A DNA stretch of 39,356 nt from Glycocaulis sp. (lineage in GTDB: Bacteria; Pseudomonadota; Alphaproteobacteria; Caulobacterales; Maricaulaceae): assembly GCA_022565665.1 (NCBI GenBank), contig JAIUMI010000021.1:1-39356 (forward strand), written 5' to 3'. The notes below the pieces were generated by a model that ran no database searches, was not told the origin of the DNA, and saw only the letters and a list, made by a program, of their open reading frames with translations. Both the position numbers and the translations under genes were made by a program. This document shows, piece after piece, positions 10,449 to 28,972 of the stretch (its first letter is position 1; every line of letters starts with the position of its first letter).

Positions 10449-12796
<2,348 letters not shown>

Positions 12797-13385
12797 GGCC
12801 TGCTCCCGCGCTGCCAGCATGTTGCGCCAGCGATACTGATATGAGTCGGATCATCGGGGAGCCTTGCCCGTGCGCCGGGCATGCGCGCCTCTTTTCCAAG
12901 CACAGGCCTTAATATAGATGGCCTTTGCCTCAAAATAACGCCGGTTAATTGACTCCTCGCGCCGCATGCCCGCCGCTTGAGAAGCGGTCATTGCGACGCG
13001 CATTTGCAGATAACTTGAGGCCGTGTGCACGCGGCCTCACTTTCTGCCGTAAATAAATGATATACCAAACTCAGAACTGCTCGCAGCATCAACTGCTGTA
13101 AAATTGTCACAAATTTTTGCGCCGCAGCGAAACTGGCCAGAAATCATGTTGCACCGCATCAACCGCTCTGCAAGGGTTTGACGGCAAGGGCAGCGAAAAG
13201 ACCGCCCTCACCTGCAAACGCGCCGTACCGGACCGCTGATCGATGCGGAGGAGACGGCCATGCTGTCAGCAGCAACATCAGGTCCGGCGGAGCGTTCTGT
13301 GCGCCCGCGCCATGTCCTTGTTCAAGCCCCTTTCCGCATTCCTGCCGGGCGACCGGCTGCAGAACACGTCGAAGGGGATGTATCC
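12797..13385. other. Intergenic region between flmB and amt, no gene seen
   Basis: A 589-bp gap between divergent genes, noticeably richer in A and T from 12905 to 13160 than its surroundings. It holds an inverted repeat GAGGCCG (13017-13023) / CGGCCTC (13032-13038). Both flmB and amt promoters must lie here. I looked for a correctly spaced sigma-54 site for amt and did not find one. A PII gene (glnK/glnB), often next to amt, is absent. Confidence 0.6.
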
Positions 13386-15090: not shown

Positions 15091-15810
15091 ATGACACACC
15101 TCGCATCACGCAAATTCACCGCACTTTCCGGCGCACTGGCTCTGGGCGTATCCGCCCTCGCCTTAACCGCACCTGCGGCCCATGCCGATGAACTGGTCAT
15201 CGAGGCCAATGTCGCATTGGTCAGCGATTACCGCTTCCGCGGCGTTTCACTGTCCGACAAGGACCCCGCCATTCAGGGCGGTTTCGACCTGACCCTGCCA
15301 AGCGGCTTCTATGTCGGCACCTGGGCATCAAGCATAGAGCCCGTCGGCAGCTCGGAACTGGAGCTGGATCTTTATGCCGGCTTCGGTTTTGAGGCAGGCG
15401 GCGCCGAGTTTGATATCGGCGTGCTCGTCTATACCTATCCGGGCGCCTCCGACAGCCATTACTGGGAAGTGTATGGCTCTGCCGGCTTCGAGACCGGATT
15501 GCTGGAGTCCACCTTCGGCTTCGCCTACGCGCCCGATCAGGACAATATCGGCGGAGAGGACAATCTCTACCTCTATTACGAGGGCGCCTTTCCGCTGGGC
15601 GATACCGGCCTCTCGCTAGTCGGCAGGCTGGGCTACGAGACCGGCGCATTTGGCGATCTCGATGGCGATGGTGACGACAAGTGGGACTGGCGGCTCGGCG
15701 TGGCCTGGAGTGCGCTCGGGGTCGATTTCGAACTCGCCTATATCGACACCTCAGAGAACACCCGCGAAAGCAATGCCACGGCCGTGTTCTCCATCTCCAA
15801 GGCGTTCTGA
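15091..15810 (+). CDS. TorF family putative outer-membrane porin
   Basis: A 239-residue beta-barrel protein. The signal peptide ends near AHA/DE (residue 32). The mature start NVALVSDYRFRGVSLSDKDPAIQGGFDL is the hallmark of this family (TIGR02001-type), followed by alternating amphipathic strands and the C-terminal Phe expected of an outer-membrane barrel (FSISKAF). Family members are suspected small-solute channels and in alphaproteobacteria often lie next to amt, as here. The ribosome site is GACAGGA. The gene ends at a strong terminator. Confidence 0.85.
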   Translation: MTHLASRKFTALSGALALGVSALALTAPAAHADELVIEANVALVSDYRFRGVSLSDKDPAIQGGFDLTLPSGFYVGTWASSIEPVGSSELELDLYAGFGFEAGGAEFDIGVLVYTYPGASDSHYWEVYGSAGFETGLLESTFGFAYAPDQDNIGGEDNLYLYYEGAFPLGDTGLSLVGRLGYETGAFGDLDGDGDDKWDWRLGVAWSALGVDFELAYIDTSENTRESNATAVFSISKAF

Positions 15811-15836
15811 CATCCTTTTGGGTGCCTTGATAGAGC

Positions 15837-15863
15837 AAGGGCGGGACCATCGGTCCCGCCCTT
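15837..15863. terminator. Bidirectional intrinsic terminator (porin / first flagellin)
   Basis: A perfect 12-bp stem AAGGGCGGGACC (15837-15848) / GGTCCCGCCCTT (15852-15863) with a 3-nt loop, ending in a T-run on the plus strand. It lies between the convergent porin and flagellin genes. On the minus strand the stem ends CCCTT without a longer T-run, so it probably works best for the porin. Confidence 0.88.
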
Positions 15864-15893
15864 TTCGCATTCCAGGTCCTGTAGCGGCCCGAA

Positions 15894-16727
15894 TTACCGC
15901 CCGAACAGTGACAGGATGATCTGCGGCTCGGAGTTGGCGATCGACAGGGCCTGCACACCAAGCTGCTGCTTGACCTGTAGCGCCGTTAGCTGCGCACTTT
16001 CCTTTGCGAGATCCGCATCGACCAGATTGCCTACCCCGGCGGTCAGGCTGTCGGTCAGCTTTCCGATAAAGCTCCGGTGAGCTTCCATCTTCTTCAGATC
16101 AGACCCCAGCCGCGCCAGAGCGGCGTTCACATTATCAAGGCTCTGATTGACGAAGGAGACCGCCGCTGCTGCCAGCGACACCGTGCCAAGGCTGGCCGTG
16201 CCCGACAGGGTGATGATGGCGCCCGAGAAATTCATGTCCTGGGTATTCAGGGTCACCGCCCGGGCCGCATCCGCATCAGCGAGGAATGCAATACCGTTGG
16301 AGATGGAGCCATTAAGCATGTTGGCGCCGTCAAAGGCCGCATTCTCCAGGATGACCTGAATCTGGCTGATCAGCGCCTTGAAGTCGCTGTCATAGGCAGC
16401 GCGCGCGAAGCTGTCGATGGACGGATCCATCGCCGCTGTCGCCTTCTCGCGCATCTCGATCAGGAGATCGGAGATCGACTCGCCTGCCGCAATCGCGACA
16501 TCACCGATGGAAACCGCCCGGTCGAGCGATGTCTTCACCGAACCCAGCGCACCGATATCGGCCCGCATGCTCTGGGCCACCGCAAACACCGAGGAGTTGT
16601 CCTTCGCTCCTGAAATGCGAAGCCCCGTATTGATCCGGTTCTGGGTGGTCTGCAGGTCGGAATTGGTCTTGTTCAGATTCTGCAGGGCGATCATCGCCGA
16701 AACATTGGTTTGGACGCTCAGCGCCAT
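15894..16727 (-). CDS. Flagellin (divergent copy)
   Basis: A 277-residue flagellin. The N-terminal D0/D1 helices start MALSVQTNVSAMIALQNLNK, with the NRINTGLRISGAKDN segment, and the C-terminal helix ends ALQVKQQLGVQALSIANSEP. The central part is short, so D2/D3 outer domains are absent, as in alphaproteobacteria. It differs clearly from the two flagellins upstream (a DSDFKALISQIQ linker and the ILSLFGR end), so it may have a distinct place in the filament, comparable with the minor flagellin FljJ of Caulobacter; this is inference. The start follows GGGAGA. It has its own sigma-54 promoter and dyad pair. Substrate for FlmG glycosylation and regulation by FlbT/FlaF are expected. Confidence 0.95.
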   Translation of the reverse strand: MALSVQTNVSAMIALQNLNKTNSDLQTTQNRINTGLRISGAKDNSSVFAVAQSMRADIGALGSVKTSLDRAVSIGDVAIAAGESISDLLIEMREKATAAMDPSIDSFARAAYDSDFKALISQIQVILENAAFDGANMLNGSISNGIAFLADADAARAVTLNTQDMNFSGAIITLSGTASLGTVSLAAAAVSFVNQSLDNVNAALARLGSDLKKMEAHRSFIGKLTDSLTAGVGNLVDADLAKESAQLTALQVKQQLGVQALSIANSEPQIILSLFGR

Positions 16728-16782
16728 TGGTCTTCTCCCAGTCTGCAAGACCGCCCTTTCGCGGCCGCTCGCGGGAGTAAGG

Positions 16783-16798
16783 AGCAAATCCGGGGCCA
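16783..16798 (-). promoter_or_regulatory. Sigma-54 promoter of the divergent flagellin
   Basis: On the minus strand TGGCCCCGGATTTGCT gives the GG-N10-GC core in a TGGC...TTGCW frame. Transcription would start near 16772, giving a leader of about 45 nt before the flagellin ATG. Confidence 0.85.
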
Positions 16799-16884
16799 CC
16801 CATGGTTAACACCCCAAATCTTCATATAAAACATGTGCTTAAATAAAAGGATGCGCCACGGCGGACCGGAGCGGATCGCATGCG

Positions 16885-16924
16885 CGGCACAAAAACTGCC
16901 GGGCTGTCAGGTCAATTTTGCCGG
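16885..16924. promoter_or_regulatory. Pair of FlbD (ftr)-like dyads upstream of the divergent flagellin
   Basis: The first element is CGGCACAAAAACTGCCG at 16885-16901, with matching CGGCA/TGCCG arms. The second is CAGGTCAATTTTGCCGG at 16908-16924, one degenerate and one good arm. Their centres lie about 120 and 145 bp upstream of the predicted start. The same arrangement recurs at the other two flagellins. FlbD as the protein is inferred from Caulobacter; flbD is not in the window. Confidence 0.65.
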
Positions 16925-16928
16925 GTGC

Positions 16929-17312
16929 TCACACCCGCTCGTTCAGCAAGCCCTGGTCCTTGCCTCCCAGAAAGGAGATCAGATCGCCGAACTTATCGGG
17001 CGGCCAGCGGCGCAGCGTCTCACCGGTGTCGGGATCGAGCAGCCGGTAAATGAAGCGGCCATTCTTATCTTCGTCGCGCTCGATCTGCAGACGGGTGCGG
17101 GCATTGGCGCTCAGTTCGGCGCGCATCCGCTCGATGGCTTCGCTCTGGCGCAGCACATCACGGGTATCGCTGGATGGTTGCCGTGTGATGCGGTCAGCAG
17201 GCTGCACGGCGCTGGCGCCGGCGCGGCTGGCCGTCTGCGAACTGGCCTGAGCAGCAGGCGCGGCCAAGGCTGCGGCGGGCTCGGAGTTCGAAACTGGTCC
17301 TATAGTGCTCAT
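16929..17312 (-). CDS. flaG: FlaG family flagellar protein
   Basis: A 127-residue soluble protein. The first 60 residues are Ala/Ser/Gln-rich and probably disordered. The C-terminal FlaG domain shows RTRLQIERDEDKNGRFIYRL and DPDTGETLRRWPPDKF, matching the family pattern of two strands followed by a Pro-Pro turn. FlaG proteins influence filament length or assembly; the mechanism is not settled. The ATG at 17312 follows GGTGA; a GTG at 17321 is in frame but lacks a site. No sigma-54 promoter was found between it and the flagellin terminator upstream. Its stop lies 5 bp from the ftr-like dyad of the next flagellin. Confidence 0.85.
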   Translation of the reverse strand: MSTIGPVSNSEPAAALAAPAAQASSQTASRAGASAVQPADRITRQPSSDTRDVLRQSEAIERMRAELSANARTRLQIERDEDKNGRFIYRLLDPDTGETLRRWPPDKFGDLISFLGGKDQGLLNERV

Positions 17313-17421
17313 ATCTGTCACCAGGTTGGCGCCGATAGTCCGGCAAGGCGCCCCTTTCCCCCTTTAACGATCGTCCCCGTATCCGCGATGCACCCTTTGA
17401 AACGTTGAAGAGAAAGAAAGC

Positions 17422-17454
17422 GGCGGAGGCAGAACCCCACGTAATGCCTCCGCC
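17422..17454 (-). terminator. Intrinsic terminator of the middle flagellin
   Basis: A 10-bp perfect stem GGCGGAGGCA (17422-17431) / TGCCTCCGCC (17445-17454) with a 13-nt loop. On the minus strand it is followed by the pyrimidine-rich CTTTCTTTCTC. It separates the flagellin from flaG. Confidence 0.8.
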
Positions 17455-17472
17455 ACTCTCCCCACCACTAAC

Positions 17473-18300
17473 TTAGCGGAAGAAGCCCAGCACCGTGGCC
17501 GGCGCCGAGTTGGCAATCGACAGCGCCTGAATGCCAAGCTGCTGCTTGACCTGCAGGGACTGCAGACGCGCCGACTCCTTCGCAAGATCGGCGTCCACCA
17601 GGTTGCCGATACCTTTTTCAAGGCTGTCGGACAGCTTGGAGACGAACGTTTTGTGGATTTCGAGCGACTTCGAACCCGTACCCAGACGCGACAGCGCCGA
17701 GTTCAGGTTGGTCAGGGCCGACTCAATGGCCGTCACCGCCGCAGCGGCGTCAGACTGGGACGCGATATCCGTACCACCTGACAGACCGAGAATGGTGCCG
17801 GACAGCGACATGTCTTCGTCGGTCACGTTGATCGTGTTGGTGCCCTTGGCATTGGCCAGAGCCGAAATGCCGCCAGACATCGAACCGTCGATCAGGTTCG
17901 ACCCGTTGAACTCGGCGTTCTCAACGATCGTCGAGATCTGGTCACGCAGAGCCTTGAAGTCCTCGTTCAGAGCAGTGCGCGAAGCACTGTCCAGCGACAC
18001 GTCTGAAGCGGCCAGCGCCTTTTCCTTCATCTCGATCAGAAGATCGGAGATGGCATCGCCGGCGGCCAGAGACACGTCAACGACAGAAATGGCAAGATCG
18101 AGGGAGTTGTTTACAGCCCGAAGACTGCCGACTTCCGCACGCATGTTCTGGGCAATGGCATAGATGGCACCATTGTCCTTCGCGGACGAAACAGCCAGGC
18201 CGGTATTGATCCGGTTCTGGACGGTTTGCAGTTCCTGATTGGTGCGATTGAGATTTTGCAGGGCGACCATCGCGCCCGCATTGGTATTTACACTAGCCAT
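17473..18300 (-). CDS. Flagellin (middle copy)
   Basis: A 275-residue flagellin starting MASVNTNAGAMVALQNLN, with NRINTGLAVSSAKDN in the N-terminal coiled region and LQVKQQLGIQALSIANSAP at the C-terminus, and no outer D2/D3 domains. The central region carries Ser/Thr-rich stretches (MSLSGTILGLSGGTD) that could be the glycosylated surface. It resembles the flagellin upstream (18660-19490) far more than the downstream one; both share stretches such as DEDFKALRDQI-like FKALRDQI and IVENAEFNG. AAGGAG lies 8 nt before the ATG, which rules out the longer frame from 18378 that would run across the promoter. Sigma-54 promoter, dyad pair and terminator are all present. Confidence 0.96.
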   Translation of the reverse strand: MASVNTNAGAMVALQNLNRTNQELQTVQNRINTGLAVSSAKDNGAIYAIAQNMRAEVGSLRAVNNSLDLAISVVDVSLAAGDAISDLLIEMKEKALAASDVSLDSASRTALNEDFKALRDQISTIVENAEFNGSNLIDGSMSGGISALANAKGTNTINVTDEDMSLSGTILGLSGGTDIASQSDAAAAVTAIESALTNLNSALSRLGTGSKSLEIHKTFVSKLSDSLEKGIGNLVDADLAKESARLQSLQVKQQLGIQALSIANSAPATVLGFFR

Positions 18301-18373
18301 TTCTTGGCTCCTTTCACGTTCTATGGTGTGACGTGCGTTTTGCACGACAGGTCTTCTGACCCGCCATCGCACC

Positions 18374-18389
18374 AGCAAGCCCGGGGCCA
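18374..18389 (-). promoter_or_regulatory. Sigma-54 promoter of the middle flagellin
   Basis: On the minus strand TGGCCCCGGGCTTGCT fits the -24/-12 consensus with correct spacing and nearly equals the promoter of the divergent flagellin. The predicted start near 18363 gives a leader of about 63 nt, the part on which FlbT acts in Caulobacter. Confidence 0.88.
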
Positions 18390-18475
18390 GTTTCCTGACT
18401 CCAACGTCAAAGATCTCATTTAGCTATGTTTTTCAGAGTGATATGTTTTATTTTGAATCCAGAGCATGAAACCGG

Positions 18476-18526
18476 CCAGGCAATAATTGCCCGTTTTAGA
18501 CCTGCCAGCCGGGCAAATTTTGCCGG
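18476..18526. promoter_or_regulatory. Pair of FlbD (ftr)-like dyads upstream of the middle flagellin
   Basis: CCAGGCAATAATTGCCCG (18476-18493) contains the perfect dyad GGCAATAATTGCC. CCGGGCAAATTTTGCCGG (18509-18526) is an almost perfect 18-bp dyad. The centres lie about 122 and 154 bp upstream of the predicted start, 33 bp apart, and an AT-rich tract (18424-18460) lies between them and the promoter, suited to DNA bending. Confidence 0.72.
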
Positions 18527-18619
18527 ATAGGCAGTTTTTACCCTGCGTCGAATCAGAAATTCATATTTAGATTCAGTTAATTAATAATAGAAGGTTAATT
18601 GATGCGTGAGCAAGAAAAA

Positions 18620-18648
18620 GGGCCGCCCCCGATCTCGGGAAGCGGCCC
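18620..18648 (-). terminator. Intrinsic terminator of the upstream flagellin
   Basis: Stem GGGCCGC (18620-18626) / GCGGCCC (18642-18648), with an inner CCCGA/TCGGG extension. On the minus strand it is followed by TTTTT from 18615-18619. It lies 12 nt past the flagellin stop codon. Confidence 0.88.
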
Positions 18649-18659
18649 CTTGTCCGAAC

Positions 18660-19490
18660 CTATCTGAAGAAGCCAAGCACGGACTGTGGCGCGGCATTGG
18701 CAATAGACAGCGCCTGAATGCCAAGCTGCTGCTTGACCTGCAGGGACTGGAGTTTCGCCGATTCCTTTGCCATGTCCGCATCGACAAGATTGCCGATACC
18801 GCTTTCCAGAGCGTCGGAAAGTTTCGTGACGAAAGTCTGATGGATTTCGAGCGCCTTTGACTTGGTGCCCAGACGCGCGAGCGCGCTGTTGACCAGGTCA
18901 AGCGAGGTGCCGATCTGTGAAGCAATCGCGGCGGCTTGCGACGCGGTGCCGAACGAAGCAGTAGCGCTGAGCGTCACGATGGAACCGGAGAGAGAGAGAT
19001 TCTCGGTGCCCACCGTGATCGTTTTGCTGCCCGTCGCGTTCGCCAGAGCGATGAAGCCGCCCGTAGAGCTGCCATCGATCAGGTTGAGCCCGTTGAACTC
19101 GGCATTCTCGACAATCGTCGCGATCTGGTCGCGAAGCGCCTTGAAGTCCTCGTTCAACGCCGTACGGCTGGCCGAGTCCAGCGAGGTATCGCCAGCGGCC
19201 AGGGCCTTTTCCTTCATTTCGATAAGCAGATCCGAAATCGCTTCACCCGCAGCAAGGGTGACATCAACGGTCGAGATGCCGCGGTTCAGACTGTCCTGAA
19301 CAACACCATAGCCACTCACTTCCGACCGCATGCGCTGGGCAATGGCGTAGATACCGCCATTATCCTTCGCGCTTGCGATATTCAGGCCGGTATTGATCCG
19401 GTTCTGAGTGGTTTCGAGTTGCATATTGGTCTTGTTCAGGTTCTGCAGGGCGACCATCGCCCCGTAGTTCGTGTTCACGGAGTTGTACAT
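18660..19490 (-). CDS. Flagellin (upstream copy)
   Basis: A 276-residue flagellin, MYNSVNTNYGAMVALQNLNK at the start and LQVKQQLGIQALSIANAAP at the end. It is close to the middle copy through both terminal domains and differs mainly at the N-terminal few residues and in the central Ser/Thr-rich part (GSIVTLSATASFG). This points to tandem duplication. GGAGG sits 10 nt before the ATG. It is the first flagellin after flaF and is separated from it by its own sigma-54 promoter and dyad pair. The product is exported by the flagellar type III apparatus without a signal peptide and, by analogy with Caulobacter, glycosylated by FlmG. Confidence 0.96.
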   Translation of the reverse strand: MYNSVNTNYGAMVALQNLNKTNMQLETTQNRINTGLNIASAKDNGGIYAIAQRMRSEVSGYGVVQDSLNRGISTVDVTLAAGEAISDLLIEMKEKALAAGDTSLDSASRTALNEDFKALRDQIATIVENAEFNGLNLIDGSSTGGFIALANATGSKTITVGTENLSLSGSIVTLSATASFGTASQAAAIASQIGTSLDLVNSALARLGTKSKALEIHQTFVTKLSDALESGIGNLVDADMAKESAKLQSLQVKQQLGIQALSIANAAPQSVLGFFR

Positions 19491-19547
19491 TGTGGGGTTC
19501 CTCCATTCTGGAAGCGGGTTACGGACGTTTTGTCCTGCAGGCGCAGG

Positions 19548-19563
19548 CGCAAACCCCGTGCCG
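19548..19563 (-). promoter_or_regulatory. Sigma-54 promoter of the upstream flagellin
   Basis: On the minus strand CGGCACGGGGTTTGCG keeps GGCACG-N4-TTGC exactly. Transcription would begin near 19537, about 47 nt before the ATG. A partial IHF-like site (CAACTTGCTGATT, 19588-19600) lies between it and the dyads. Confidence 0.85.
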
Positions 19564-19642
19564 CGCTGCGCACCCTGGAGACATCGACAACTTGCTGATT
19601 TCTATAGCGGTTTAACTGGCGCACGCAGAGGATGCGCCGTCA

Positions 19643-19693
19643 CCGGCCAAACTTGCCGGGTCATATTGTCCGCTGGCAGGAAAAATGAGCCGG
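19643..19693. promoter_or_regulatory. Pair of FlbD (ftr)-like dyads upstream of the upstream flagellin
   Basis: CCGGCCAAACTTGCCGG (19643-19659) is a 17-bp dyad. The second element is weaker, with GGCA at 19675-19678 and GCCGG at 19689-19693. The centres lie about 114 and 146 bp upstream of the predicted start, matching the other two flagellins. Confidence 0.62.
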
Positions 19694-19708
19694 GCGGCTC
19701 GTCCGCTG

Positions 19709-20092
19709 CTAGGCAGCAGGCTGGGCAGCCTCTGCACTGGCGCCCGCAGGAGCAAGCCCCTGCATGATGGTGCGGTTGATCTCGATCAGCCCGTCCAGCT
19801 CGTCATTATCACGCATCGCGGCACTGGATTGGCGCGAGATGTAGATCGACAGCGAAATGATGGCCGCGCGCAGCGATTCAGGCAGCTGATTGGCATCACT
19901 CGCACAATCAGCTGCAAAGGCGGTCCACATGCGCCGGTTCCAGTCCAGGGCATCGGCCCGCCGGGCAATCGCTTCTGGGCCGGCATCTCTCGCCTGCAGG
20001 AGTGCGCGTGTGACCTGGCCAAACAGCCGGTACTCGGCCGAGCGCGGATCTTCGTGACGCGAAGCTGCTGTCTGATAGGCCTTGTAGGACAT
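19709..20092 (-). CDS. flaF: Flagellar biosynthesis regulator FlaF
   Basis: A 127-residue, all-helical cytoplasmic protein. [31 protein letters not shown] is the conserved FlaF opening; further on it shows ALDWNRRMW and [14 protein letters not shown], both typical. In Caulobacter, FlaF is required for flagellin synthesis or secretion and acts against FlbT. The start at 20092 lies 7 bp after the flbT stop, so the two form one operon; a longer in-frame start at 20146 would overlap flbT and add non-conserved residues. The C-terminus is Ala-rich. Confidence 0.93.
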
Positions 20093-20099
20093 GGAGACT

Positions 20100-20510
20100 C
20101 TAACCCTTGGAAGCTTTGCTGGCGCGCCCGGTGCGCTCATCTTCATAGGCGATGAGCTTGCGGCACCGGATCAGGGCCTTGTAGAAATCACCCGCCATCA
20201 CATCCCGGCTCACCGACACGCACTCGGCCAGCACTTCAGGATTGGCGATGGCGCCCATGAATTCAGTCATGCGCATGACGAACTGGTCATAGACGGCGCC
20301 CTCGGCCCGGTTTTCCAGATACATCATCATGACGGGGAAATAGATGCGCCGGGCCGGGCTGTCGGCCTCGTGCTCCTGCATGATGTCCTTTTCCCGCAGC
20401 ACCGAGGCCTTGTTCTGCAGGACGAGTGTCGCGCGCCGATCGCCGTTTTCCACCACGGCCCCGTTGAGAACAAACTTCTCACCGGGCTTTAGCGACAGCT
20501 TCAGCGGCAT
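20100..20510 (-). CDS. flbT: Flagellin synthesis repressor FlbT
   Basis: A 136-residue protein with [20 protein letters not shown], then [20 protein letters not shown] and [13 protein letters not shown], all diagnostic of FlbT. In Caulobacter, FlbT binds the 5' untranslated region of flagellin mRNA and promotes its decay until hook assembly is complete. The three flagellin leaders in this window are its presumed targets. GGGGAGGGG precedes the ATG. Basic residues at the C-terminus ([11 protein letters not shown]) may contact RNA, an inference. Gene order flbT-flaF-flagellins is as in Caulobacter. It is divergent from flmG. Confidence 0.95.
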
Positions 20511-20655
20511 GGCAGCCCCTCCCCTTGGAACGCGTTGAAAGTCCCGCCATTGGGCAGGCCGGACCCTCGCACGTCAACTCTTGCGCGTCAGGGTGAAGAA
20601 AGCGTTGCACATGCGTGCTTTCACTGCATTTGGCTGCACGCCATCCCGCCCAATC

Positions 20656-20671
20656 GTTAGCAGCTTCTTAA
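20656..20671. promoter_or_regulatory. Possible CtrA box between flbT and flmG
   Basis: The minus strand reads TTAAGAAGCTGCTAAC, that is TTAA-N7-CTAAC, one mismatch from the CtrA consensus TTAA-N7-TTAAC. It lies 57 bp before flmG and about 145 bp before flbT, so it could serve either gene. Short sites of this kind occur by chance, hence the low score. Confidence 0.35.
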
Positions 20672-20727
20672 TCGAAGCACGTCCACCTCGACCCTGATAC
20701 AAGCAGGCAGCGGGGCATTGGACACCG

Positions 20728-22518
20728 ATGAGCAGACTTCTCGATCTCGATGCGGAACTGGCCAAAGGCGTTGAACAGGCCGTTGAACGCGATGCCGACA
20801 CCAGCGCTGCCATTCCCGGCCTTGACCTGACGGCCGCGACCGCACGCACGAAGGCAGACGCGAAAACGGTGGCGAAACTGCGCCGTGCCATGGCCCTTGT
20901 CGATGCCGGCAAGGCGACCGAAGGCGCACGCCTTGCCCTGAAAGTGCTGGATGAGAATCCAGAGCTTGGCGTCGCCAACCAGGCGGTCGGCATGGCGCTG
21001 GAGCATCTGGGCAGGCTCTCCAAGGCGCTGGAATTCTATGAGCGCGCCCTGCAGCGCGATCCGAAGAATCCGGAAATCTACCAGAGCCTTGGCCTGCTGG
21101 CCTCCAAGCTCGGCCTTCTGCCTACGGCTGAGAAATTCATGCGCCTTTACCTGCAGATGAACCCCAAGGCGAAAAACGGCCTGCTCAACCTTGCTGCCGT
21201 CCTGAGAGATCAGGCCAAGTTCGATGATGCGATCGAGCTTTTGCGGCAGGCCATCTATGCCGATCAGGAAAATCCCGATCTGTGGAACGCGCTTGGTACT
21301 GCGGTCATGGAGGCGGGTGATGCCGCCGAGGCCGCAACCTTCCATGCCGAAGCCCTGCGCCTGAAGCCGGGCTATGGCCGCGCGCACCACAATCTGGCTC
21401 ACGTGCTTGAACTGCAGGGTGATGTGCAAGGCGCGCTCACCCATTTCCGCGCAGCCCTGGCCAATGCGGAGTCAGAGCGCGACAGCGTGATTACCAGCCA
21501 CGGGCTTTCCCACACCCTGCTGTCTGCGGGCGAGCTGGAAGAGGGCTGGGAAATGTATCGCTGGCGGCTGGACCGGCATTACAGCTTTGCCACCAATTAT
21601 CTCATACCCGCCCCGCCCTGGGATGGAGCAGACCCGGCCGAACTGAATGGGCAGACGCTGGTCATTGTCGGCGAGCAGGGCATTGGCGACGAGGTGCTGT
21701 TTGCCAATACATTTGCTGATGCCATCCGCGCTGTCGGCAAGGATGGCGAGGTGCGCATCGCGTGTGAAAAGCGACTGATCCCGCTCTTCCGGCGCTCCTT
21801 CCCCAAAGCAGTAGTGGAGCGTCACTTCACGGTGGAGCGCGAAGGCCGCCAGCACCGCCACGCGCCCGACCTGTTCAAGGACGGCAAGGCAAACCTGTGG
21901 ACGCCTGCGGGCAATCTGTGCCGCACCTTCCGCTCCGATGCCAGCCGGTTCCCGTCAGAGTCCGGCTTCCTGAAAGCCGATCCGGCGCGCGTGGATGCGT
22001 TTGCAAAGCAGCTTGCCGCGCTGGGGCCCGGCCCCAAGGTCGGCGTGCTCTGGAAGTCGCTGAAGATGAACGCTGCGCGTTCAAAGCACTTCGCGCCGTT
22101 CGAGATGTGGAAGCCCATCCTGAAAACGCCCGGCGCCGTCTTCATCAATCTCCAGTATGGCGAGGTGGACGAGGAACTGGCAGAGGCCGAAGCGCGCTTT
22201 GGCGTGAAAATCCACCAGCCGCAGGGCATTGATCTGAAAGACGATCTTGATGGCGTGGCGGCGCTCGGCAAGGCCTGCGATCTTGTGCTGGGCCCGATGA
22301 ACGCGACGACCAACCTTACGGCCTCGGTCGGCGGACTCGTCTGGTTCATCCGCCCGATTGCGGTCAGCTGGACACTTCTGGGGCGCGATCAGATGCTCTG
22401 GTATCCGCAGACGCGCACCTTTGCCGGTGAACGCTATCGCGACTGGGCAGGCGGCATGAAGAAAATGGCGCAGGCCTTTGGCAAGTTTATCGAAAACCAC
22501 GCGAGGAAAGCGGCTTAA
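20728..22518 (+). CDS. flmG: TPR-containing flagellin glycosyltransferase FlmG
   Basis: A 596-residue protein. Residues about 45-255 hold five or six tetratricopeptide repeats (for example ALEFYERALQRDPKNPEIYQSLG, given here only by its register, and AIELLRQAIYADQENPDLWNALG in the same register). Residues about 300-590 form a GT-B-like transferase domain with LVIVGEQGIGDEVLFANTF, VGVLWKSLKMN and DLVLGPMNATTNLTASVGG. Caulobacter FlmG has this architecture and transfers pseudaminic acid to flagellins, using the TPR part to bind them. Position next to flbT and the presence of flmA/flmB support the call. The ribosome site is weak. It converges on ybgC with 2 bp between stops. Confidence 0.85.
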   Translation: MSRLLDLDAELAKGVEQAVERDADTSAAIPGLDLTAATARTKADAKTVAKLRRAMALVDAGKATEGARLALKVLDENPELGVANQAVGMALEHLGRLSKALEFYERALQRDPKNPEIYQSLGLLASKLGLLPTAEKFMRLYLQMNPKAKNGLLNLAAVLRDQAKFDDAIELLRQAIYADQENPDLWNALGTAVMEAGDAAEAATFHAEALRLKPGYGRAHHNLAHVLELQGDVQGALTHFRAALANAESERDSVITSHGLSHTLLSAGELEEGWEMYRWRLDRHYSFATNYLIPAPPWDGADPAELNGQTLVIVGEQGIGDEVLFANTFADAIRAVGKDGEVRIACEKRLIPLFRRSFPKAVVERHFTVEREGRQHRHAPDLFKDGKANLWTPAGNLCRTFRSDASRFPSESGFLKADPARVDAFAKQLAALGPGPKVGVLWKSLKMNAARSKHFAPFEMWKPILKTPGAVFINLQYGEVDEELAEAEARFGVKIHQPQGIDLKDDLDGVAALGKACDLVLGPMNATTNLTASVGGLVWFIRPIAVSWTLLGRDQMLWYPQTRTFAGERYRDWAGGMKKMAQAFGKFIENHARKAA

Positions 22519-28778: not shown

Positions 28779-28972
28779 GAACTTTGTCCGTACCTTCTGC
28801 CTTGTACCATAAGGGTTTTTCGCGCGTTTTGCGCGGTCGGGGGCGCCTTAGCCGCCCCAAACCCATTTGTCCAGCTAGAGGGCAGGTGCGAAGATCATGC
28901 TGCGAGTGCGAGATGGGACTTTGCCGGCGTTCAGCGGGGCAATCCGCAGATCGGGGAACCAGACAAGATGTA

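Follow-up and report, generated by a model that had tools for sequence, protein, structure and literature searches.

The minus strand of a 39,356-nucleotide contig from Glycocaulis sp. (JAIUMI010000021.1, assembly GCA_022565665.1; genome 2.74 Mb, 99.87% complete), all of which was analysed and is called the window here, carries three flagellin genes, F1, F2 and F3, with sigma-54 promoters and tandem palindromes upstream of each and, before F2 and F3, a conserved hairpin element in the transcribed leader. On that strand the gene order is flbT (20100..20510; FlbT search E 3.5e-45), whose product we propose as the reader of the leader element, flaF (19709..20146), F3 (18660..19490, start 19490), F2 (17473..18300, start 18300), a FlaG-like gene (16929..17321) and F1 (15894..16728, start 16728). 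A search of the genome with F2 as the query returned three flagellins, all inside the window. F2, whose best named matches are Glycocaulis albus (94%) and Oceanicaulis sp. HLUCCA04 (87%; Maricaulaceae), is of the structural type, its closest solved structures being Caulobacter FljK, FljL, FljM and FljN, and F3 is placed with the structural flagellins by the tree.

Between the -12 element and the ATG, the leaders of structural flagellins contain tandem hairpins with fixed loops, ARAA or ARAAN. The first-pass annotation had described the promoters and palindromes, a layer that holds up, and had overlooked this RNA element. In the F2 leader, folding and covariation identify hairpin 1 (GGGUC-AGAA-GACCU, 18349..18362) and hairpin 2 (CGUGC-AAAAC-GCACG, 18332..18346), both read on the minus strand like all leader features given here; a weak hairpin 3 of 3 bp (CAU-AGAAC-GUG, 18315..18325) lies just upstream of the Shine-Dalgarno sequence at 18308-18312 and is absent in this form from the predicted minimum-energy fold. 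The F3 leader folds into GGAC-AAAAC-GUCC (19523..19535) and a last hairpin, CUUCC-AGAAU-GGAGG (19500..19514), in which CUUCC is predicted to pair with the Shine-Dalgarno GGAGG; the predicted fold also closes an A-U pair, leaving a GAA loop. By folding, the F1 leader (16726..16782) has a single hairpin with a GAAAGG loop and no ARAA tandem.

To compare leaders, we assembled 216 distinct flagellin upstream regions from 79 related loci and the window (1 of 217 was dropped; three are the window's own). A sigma-54 site lies at -130 to -25 in 145 of these, and the 71 others were left out of promoter-based counts; removal of 3 identical leaders from the 145 gave 142 distinct leaders from across the Alphaproteobacteria. 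These contain 174 ARAA hairpins with stems of at least 4 bp, compared to 6.6 in shuffled sequences. In 22 F2-type leaders, 96.4% of the cells pair, with a covariation score of 0.399 versus 0.148 for shuffled and at most 0.081 for slid controls. A larger set consists of 104 model-fitted leaders (matches at E<=0.002 from 60 of the 78 sources that were searched first); there, each of the 10 pairs has double changes (8.1 pairs in shuffles), in 213 cells versus 50, in an alignment that leans to the model. An alignment-free test, in which 3' flanks were re-dealt and stems of at least 4 bp were scored, gave a drop from 40 of 46 to 14.2 for hairpin 1, from 39 of 49 to 8.7 for hairpin 2, and from 18 of 52 to 8.4 for hairpin 3.

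In this genome, the second version of the leader model finds matches at E<=0.01 only at F2 (4.9e-16) and F3 (1.8e-6). Matches at that threshold occur in 40 of 289 Alphaproteobacteria genomes, this one included, and we inspected 29 loci from the others. Sixteen lie before a flagellin (in one of these the reading frame is broken after ~19 residues, and three are truncated at a contig end), two before a small open reading frame (ORF) overlapping flbT, one before mraZ, and ten before nothing recognisably flagellar; at E<=1e-4, the 19 remaining loci comprise 15 flagellins, the two flbT-overlapping ORFs, mraZ and one other. A second family of the same order, with structural flagellins resembling Caulobacter FljM (L263, 329 bits), also has the element. 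The leader element is a covarying RNA structure specific to flagellins. It is apparently uncatalogued: the leaders have no match in Rfam at E<=1 (window 15500-21000), and no published description of an ARAA hairpin was found in literature searches that were not aimed at the hairpin itself and left subscription journals mostly outside. The flg-Rhizobiales RNA (Rfam RF01736) is a flagellar-gene RNA motif of Alphaproteobacteria and so alike by name, and it has no match in the same interval at that threshold.

F1 stands apart from this pattern. The ARAA hairpin is missing from 32 of 38 F1-class leaders, versus 4 of 65 for F2 and 3 of 39 for F3. A quick tree of 104 flagellins puts F1 into a 25-member clade (support 84, not starred, with 96 and 99 for subclades). 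Nine genomes of the second family each contribute one flagellin to this clade, and one F1-like row (Hirschia) sits outside it on a long branch; within the clade, the hairpin is absent from 22 of the 24 leaders of known state. F1 also resembles the solved Caulobacter flagellins less closely than F2 does (best E on the 1e-62 scale versus 1e-75). From the tree and the structure comparison, we infer that F1 is FljJ-like. Translational co-repression of Caulobacter flagellins by FlbT and FljJ was reportedly described by Anderson and Gober in 2000 and by Ardissone et al. in 2020. By eye, the second flagellins of L261, L264, L265 and L266, which belong to the F1 clade and the second family, have no sigma-54 site within 90 bases and instead carry GTTAACCAT, which we take to resemble a CtrA half-site.

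A role of FlbT as a post-transcriptional regulator of flagellin was recognised by 2000 at the latest; in a review from 2015, the entry for its RNA recognition motif is blank and the mechanism is left unresolved (PMC4347634). It acts on flagellin 5' untranslated regions (UTRs), and an FlbT-FljJ pair co-represses (PMC3930126, PMC4347634, PMC7591256); the diverged FljJ of Caulobacter is described as the only flagellin to bind FlbT and as a co-repressor of the others (PMC7591256). Here, likewise, flbT, flaF, structural flagellins and one diverged flagellin are clustered, with the proposed control placed at the flagellin 5' UTR, whereas neither the tandem ARAA hairpins nor the fact that the F1 clade almost lacks them was found in the available text on the Caulobacter system. 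FlbT is encoded in all 17 other genomes that, at E<=1e-4, have the element before a flagellin (15) or before the flbT-overlapping ORF (2, of one genus), compared to 92 of the 165 flagellin-bearing genomes overall (73 lack it). The association of element and FlbT gives a Fisher value of 3e-5, uncorrected for kinship, in a test that places this genome on the no-leader side and so works against the reading we favour. At L180 and L183 (1501-1562 in each; two genomes, one genus), the element stands before an ORF of 81 residues overlapping the flbT start, an arrangement that suggests autoregulation by FlbT. We infer from these comparisons of sequences that the ARAA leader element is the best candidate for the RNA target of FlbT. 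With its covarying stems and fixed loop letters, its presence on structural flagellins, its rarity on the co-repressor-like paralogue and its occurrence before flbT in two genomes, the hairpin offers a specific, testable target for this protein.

Several observations weigh against this assignment or against the element itself. At E<=1e-4, no counted leader match is present in 74 of the 91 other flagellin genomes with FlbT, and among 25 sampled leaders from FlbT-bearing genomes (23 from other orders), 12 have ARAA hairpins (expected 1.1); this means that the element diverges or that FlbT works without it in some cases. Seven flagellins that belong to another family of this order and fall outside the F1 part of the tree lack the element, and a single hairpin with an AAAA loop is present in the F1 leader of the two nearest relatives. 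Two ARAA hairpins (L187, 1501-1566; E 5e-6) precede an ORF taken by eye for mraZ in an FlbT-bearing genome. An activating role is reported for the FlbT of Brucella (PMC4347634, PMC9812332). Hairpin 3 is weak, with an ARAA hairpin on the Shine-Dalgarno arm in 20 of 65 F2 and 19 of 39 F3 leaders; the F3 leader folds no better than its own shuffles (z -1.06), and the element-free F1 leader folds as well as that of F2 (z -2.43 versus -2.33). Finally, RNAalifold recovered only 3 pairs from an unfitted alignment of 54 leaders less than 80% identical to one another, because loop lengths differ among these mixed leaders; the homogeneous set of 22 and the anchored re-deal test were used in place of free folding.

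The hairpins might instead be passive, acting in stability or RNase protection, or might work through the fold of the RNA itself, unread by any dedicated protein. Short GC stems capped by purine loops are stable, as the z-score of the F2 leader illustrates, and FlbT reading is itself deduced from sequence. However, the loop letters are fixed while the stems covary, which points to a reader of the loops, and the element tracks the presence of FlbT and is mostly missing from the F1 clade; we regard a passive role as unlikely. Still less probable, in our estimate, is a reader other than FlbT itself, be it FlaF, an FlbT-FlaF complex or another RNA-binding protein. flaF does adjoin flbT here, but published work names FlbT as the 5' UTR interactor and FlaF as a secretion chaperone (PMC3930126, PMC4347634, PMC7591256), and in the two genomes of one genus it is an ORF overlapping flbT that the element precedes.

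At the DNA level, sigma-54 -24/-12 promoters had been claimed for all three flagellins, and pattern scoring located them on the minus strand exactly where they were described: TGGCCCCGGATTTGCT for F1 (16783..16798), TGGCCCCGGGCTTGCT for F2 (18374..18389) and CGGCACGGGGTTTGCG for F3 (19548..19563). These are 3 of only 6 sites of that score in the window. Two dyads per promoter had also been described. The dyads are real, but their number is not two throughout: palindromes of the GGCAA-N3-TTGCC type, centred 88-147 bp upstream, number two for F1, three for F2 and three for F3, one of the last being weak. For F1, they lie at 16906..16926 (distal, centre 16916, 16.8 bits) and 16884..16904 (proximal, centre 16894, 9.5 bits); for F2 at 18526..18546 (the overlooked third, centre 18536, 15.2 bits), 18508..18528 (centre 18518, 23.3 bits) and 18475..18495 (proximal, centre 18485, 21.3 bits); and for F3 at 19675..19695 (distal, centre 19685, 13.0 bits), 19655..19675 (the weak one, centre 19665, 8.7 bits) and 19641..19661 (proximal, centre 19651, 18.3 bits). 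No strand is assigned to these FlbD/ftr-type sites.

The recurrence of the dyad emerges from a search that presupposes no motif. Enumeration of perfect dyads in the 216 upstream regions ranks GGCA-N5-TGCC first (86 regions versus 2.8 in dinucleotide shuffles) and CGGCA-N5-TGCCG second (52 versus 0.6). A refined matrix built from 408 sites in the same regions describes a 21-bp palindrome, roughly GCCCGGCAAAWTTTGCCGGGC. At least one match of at least 8 bits lies upstream of the promoter in 145 of 145 cases, a count made with no shuffle control and to some extent circular, since these sequences also served to build the matrix; matches cluster near -95 to -100, -115 to -120, -130 to -135 and -150. 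An AT-rich stretch occupies -50 to -20 in flagellin upstream regions, and 61 of the 145 promoters have an IHF-like site matching at 8 or 9 of 9 positions, versus 8.7 in mononucleotide shuffles. The matrix was then applied to 478,597 positions, about 17% of the genome with flagellar regions deliberately included, which contain 98 matches of at least 10 bits. Of the 10 best matches, 8 fall in flagellar regulatory regions, namely those of F1, F2 (twice), F3, flgK, fliF, flgF and fliX/flgI, and the other two within ORFs. The fliF palindrome is ~60 bp upstream of the likely fliF start, which was chosen by eye; others lie upstream of flgF and between fliX and flgI. Around the flgK promoter there are three matches (L008 5041, 5061 and 5269), two of them between promoter and gene. 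Simpler markers were rejected: the bare 13-mer GGCARNNNYTGCC is unspecific genome-wide (49 places versus 17 for the reversed pattern), and the sigma-54 pattern alone gives 53 versus 33 when reversed.

The genome encodes FlbD, as the first-pass reading of the dyads as FlbD-bound ftr elements would lead one to expect (C1:221057-222418; NCBIfam NF050807, 779 bits, cut-off 750; GAFTGA present); the gene shares a stretch with fliF and directly precedes flhA. That reading gains further support from the best motif targets, flgK, fliF, flgF, fliX/flgI and the flagellins, a set described under FlbD/ftr control in Caulobacter (PMC3930126, PMC3096577), where FlbD acts on ftr sites of middle and late genes and represses fliF (review, PMC3930126 / PMC3096577). 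At least one family cut-off is passed by each of flgK, flgF, flgI, flhA and fliF. FliX matches its own family over its full length with 135 bits, below the cut-off of 153, and the gene opposite flgK, which has no family match, is named fliK by position only. As in the class III-IV promoters of Caulobacter crescentus, sigma-54 promoters, FlbD and FliX genes and palindromes at this flagellar set occur together; here, in contrast, each flagellin has two or three tandem palindromes, and their likeness to ftr is judged from genomic context. A strong sigma-54 activator domain is found in three proteins, FlbD, NtrX and one that we label TacA-like, and two further matches are weak and lie outside the comparison of four NtrC-family proteins, in which only FlbD and the TacA-like protein (C1:326454-327968) keep the GAFTGA sigma-54 contact motif; the NtrC-like protein (L009:7474-8772) and NtrX (L009:11086-12501) lack it, as is also reported for Caulobacter NtrC (PMC12421884). 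Binding of the palindromes by another NtrC-type activator, TacA-like or NtrX, is thus very improbable: a second GAFTGA-bearing activator is indeed encoded, but NtrX and the NtrC-like protein lack the motif, and, of the 10 top-scoring sites in the 17% scanned, 8 are at flagellar genes, including fliF and fliX/flgI. Promoters, palindromes and an FlbD gene are all present, and by its predicted sites the DNA layer is a member of the FlbD/ftr system, under ordinary Caulobacter-type control. The promoter layer that was noted first is right and, taken alone, ordinary; the leader RNA element is the stronger result.

Taken together, these data make it likely that two switches are stacked on the same genes, a DNA layer of FlbD and sigma-54 and an RNA layer of FlbT and the ARAA leader. 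By analogy with Caulobacter, FlbD would bind the two or three tandem palindromes and, across the AT-rich, IHF-like stretch, presumably bent, would activate sigma-54 polymerase at -24/-12. The transcribed leaders of F2 and F3 would then form tandem hairpins whose loops read ARAA(N), with the final one at the Shine-Dalgarno sequence or immediately before it. FlbT, encoded next door, could read several of these loops at once and keep ribosomes from entering as long as the hook-basal body is not ready; the FljJ-like F1 flagellin would be a possible co-repressor. Since the F1 leader is without the tandem element, F1 could be made first.

The predicted RNA layer invites comparison with CsrA. In the CsrA-FliW-flagellin homeostasis of Bacillus and Campylobacter, leader hairpins, a Shine-Dalgarno site and a flagellar partner protein take part. 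The two systems are alike in their leader hairpins with purine-rich loops, the Shine-Dalgarno site and a partner protein tied to the flagellum; they differ in that the loop is ARAA and not GGA, that FlbT stands in place of CsrA, and that the two proteins are almost never found in one genome. CsrA occurs in 56 of the 289 genomes. Among the 165 with flagellin, both proteins occur in 2, FlbT alone in 90, CsrA alone in 48 and neither in 25; counted by family code (n=105), the figures are 3, 53, 35 and 14. We also sampled leaders from 20 FlbT-bearing and 20 CsrA-bearing loci, hand-picked and not random among the genomes listed; four more loci gave five FlbT-bearing leaders, and in the CsrA sample the start codon was found by fixed offsets and counted in 19 of 20. 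The 38 CsrA-genome leaders contain 31 hairpins with GGA loops (expected 11.9), and 2 of the 38 have ARAA (expected 1.8). The 25 FlbT-genome leaders show the reverse, with ARAA in 12 and 7 GGA loops (expected 8.8). In the window, no hairpin loop has GGA at F2 (AGAA/AAAAC/AGAAC) or F3 (AAAAC/AGAAU). The ARAA element with FlbT may therefore be the alphaproteobacterial counterpart of CsrA control, as judged from these patterns. A discussion sentence from 2016 already likens FlaF/FlbT to CsrA-FliW (PMC4894983), and the near exclusion of FlbT and CsrA lends genome-scale support to an analogy that, in the text available to us, had been met only as that sentence.

A bolder proposal is that FlbT is a highly diverged relative of CsrA that reads ARAA instead of GGA loops, and that a circuit of FlbT, FlaF/FljJ and ARAA replaced CsrA-FliW-GGA control in much of the Alphaproteobacteria, so that the FlbD and FlbT switches are stacked on the same flagellin genes; we consider this conceivable and rather doubtful. 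The predicted FlbT model (mean predicted local distance difference test score, pLDDT, 83) has four N-terminal strands, of lower confidence, followed by helices. In profile alignments (hhalign), FlbT 3-40 aligns end to end and collinear with CsrA 2-45, and permuted controls reach the FlbT-CsrA profile score in 2 of 100, 0 of 300, 1 of 300 and 0 of 300 runs. The hhalign probability varies with the alignment (5, 13, 65, 59 and 37%, falling from 59 to 37% once two fragment rows are removed), and because of this range from 5 to 65% we do not adopt homology as a conclusion. A plain CsrA hidden Markov model scores the FlbT N-terminus no higher than 2-3 of 100 permuted sets. Pfam CsrA is matched by 1 of 42 FlbT N-termini (E 0.018), and an Sm-like family by four (best E 0.0057). 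Foldseek and VIA-align lists for the whole model and its N-terminal 52 residues contain no CsrA and no meaningful match, profile searches of the PDB with FlbT gave first weak L14e matches and then none, and no CsrA-like FlbT was found in the literature searched, with subscription journals mostly outside it.

The FlaG-like gene between F2 and F1 scores 21.8 in Pfam, below the cut-off of 23.8, with no NCBIfam match. A weak leader match (14.8 bits) at 28793-28861 of the window, which has a hairpin of 5 bp with the loop AAAAC and lies immediately before a gene for an E1 dehydrogenase, is probably due to chance, and the weak matches outside flagellins (this one, L166-L172, L191-L194 and L196-L201) were treated as such. 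Near the flagellins, at 10473-12820, the window also carries genes for a dehydratase of polysaccharide synthesis and a DegT aminotransferase, which look like part of a flagellin-sugar pathway.

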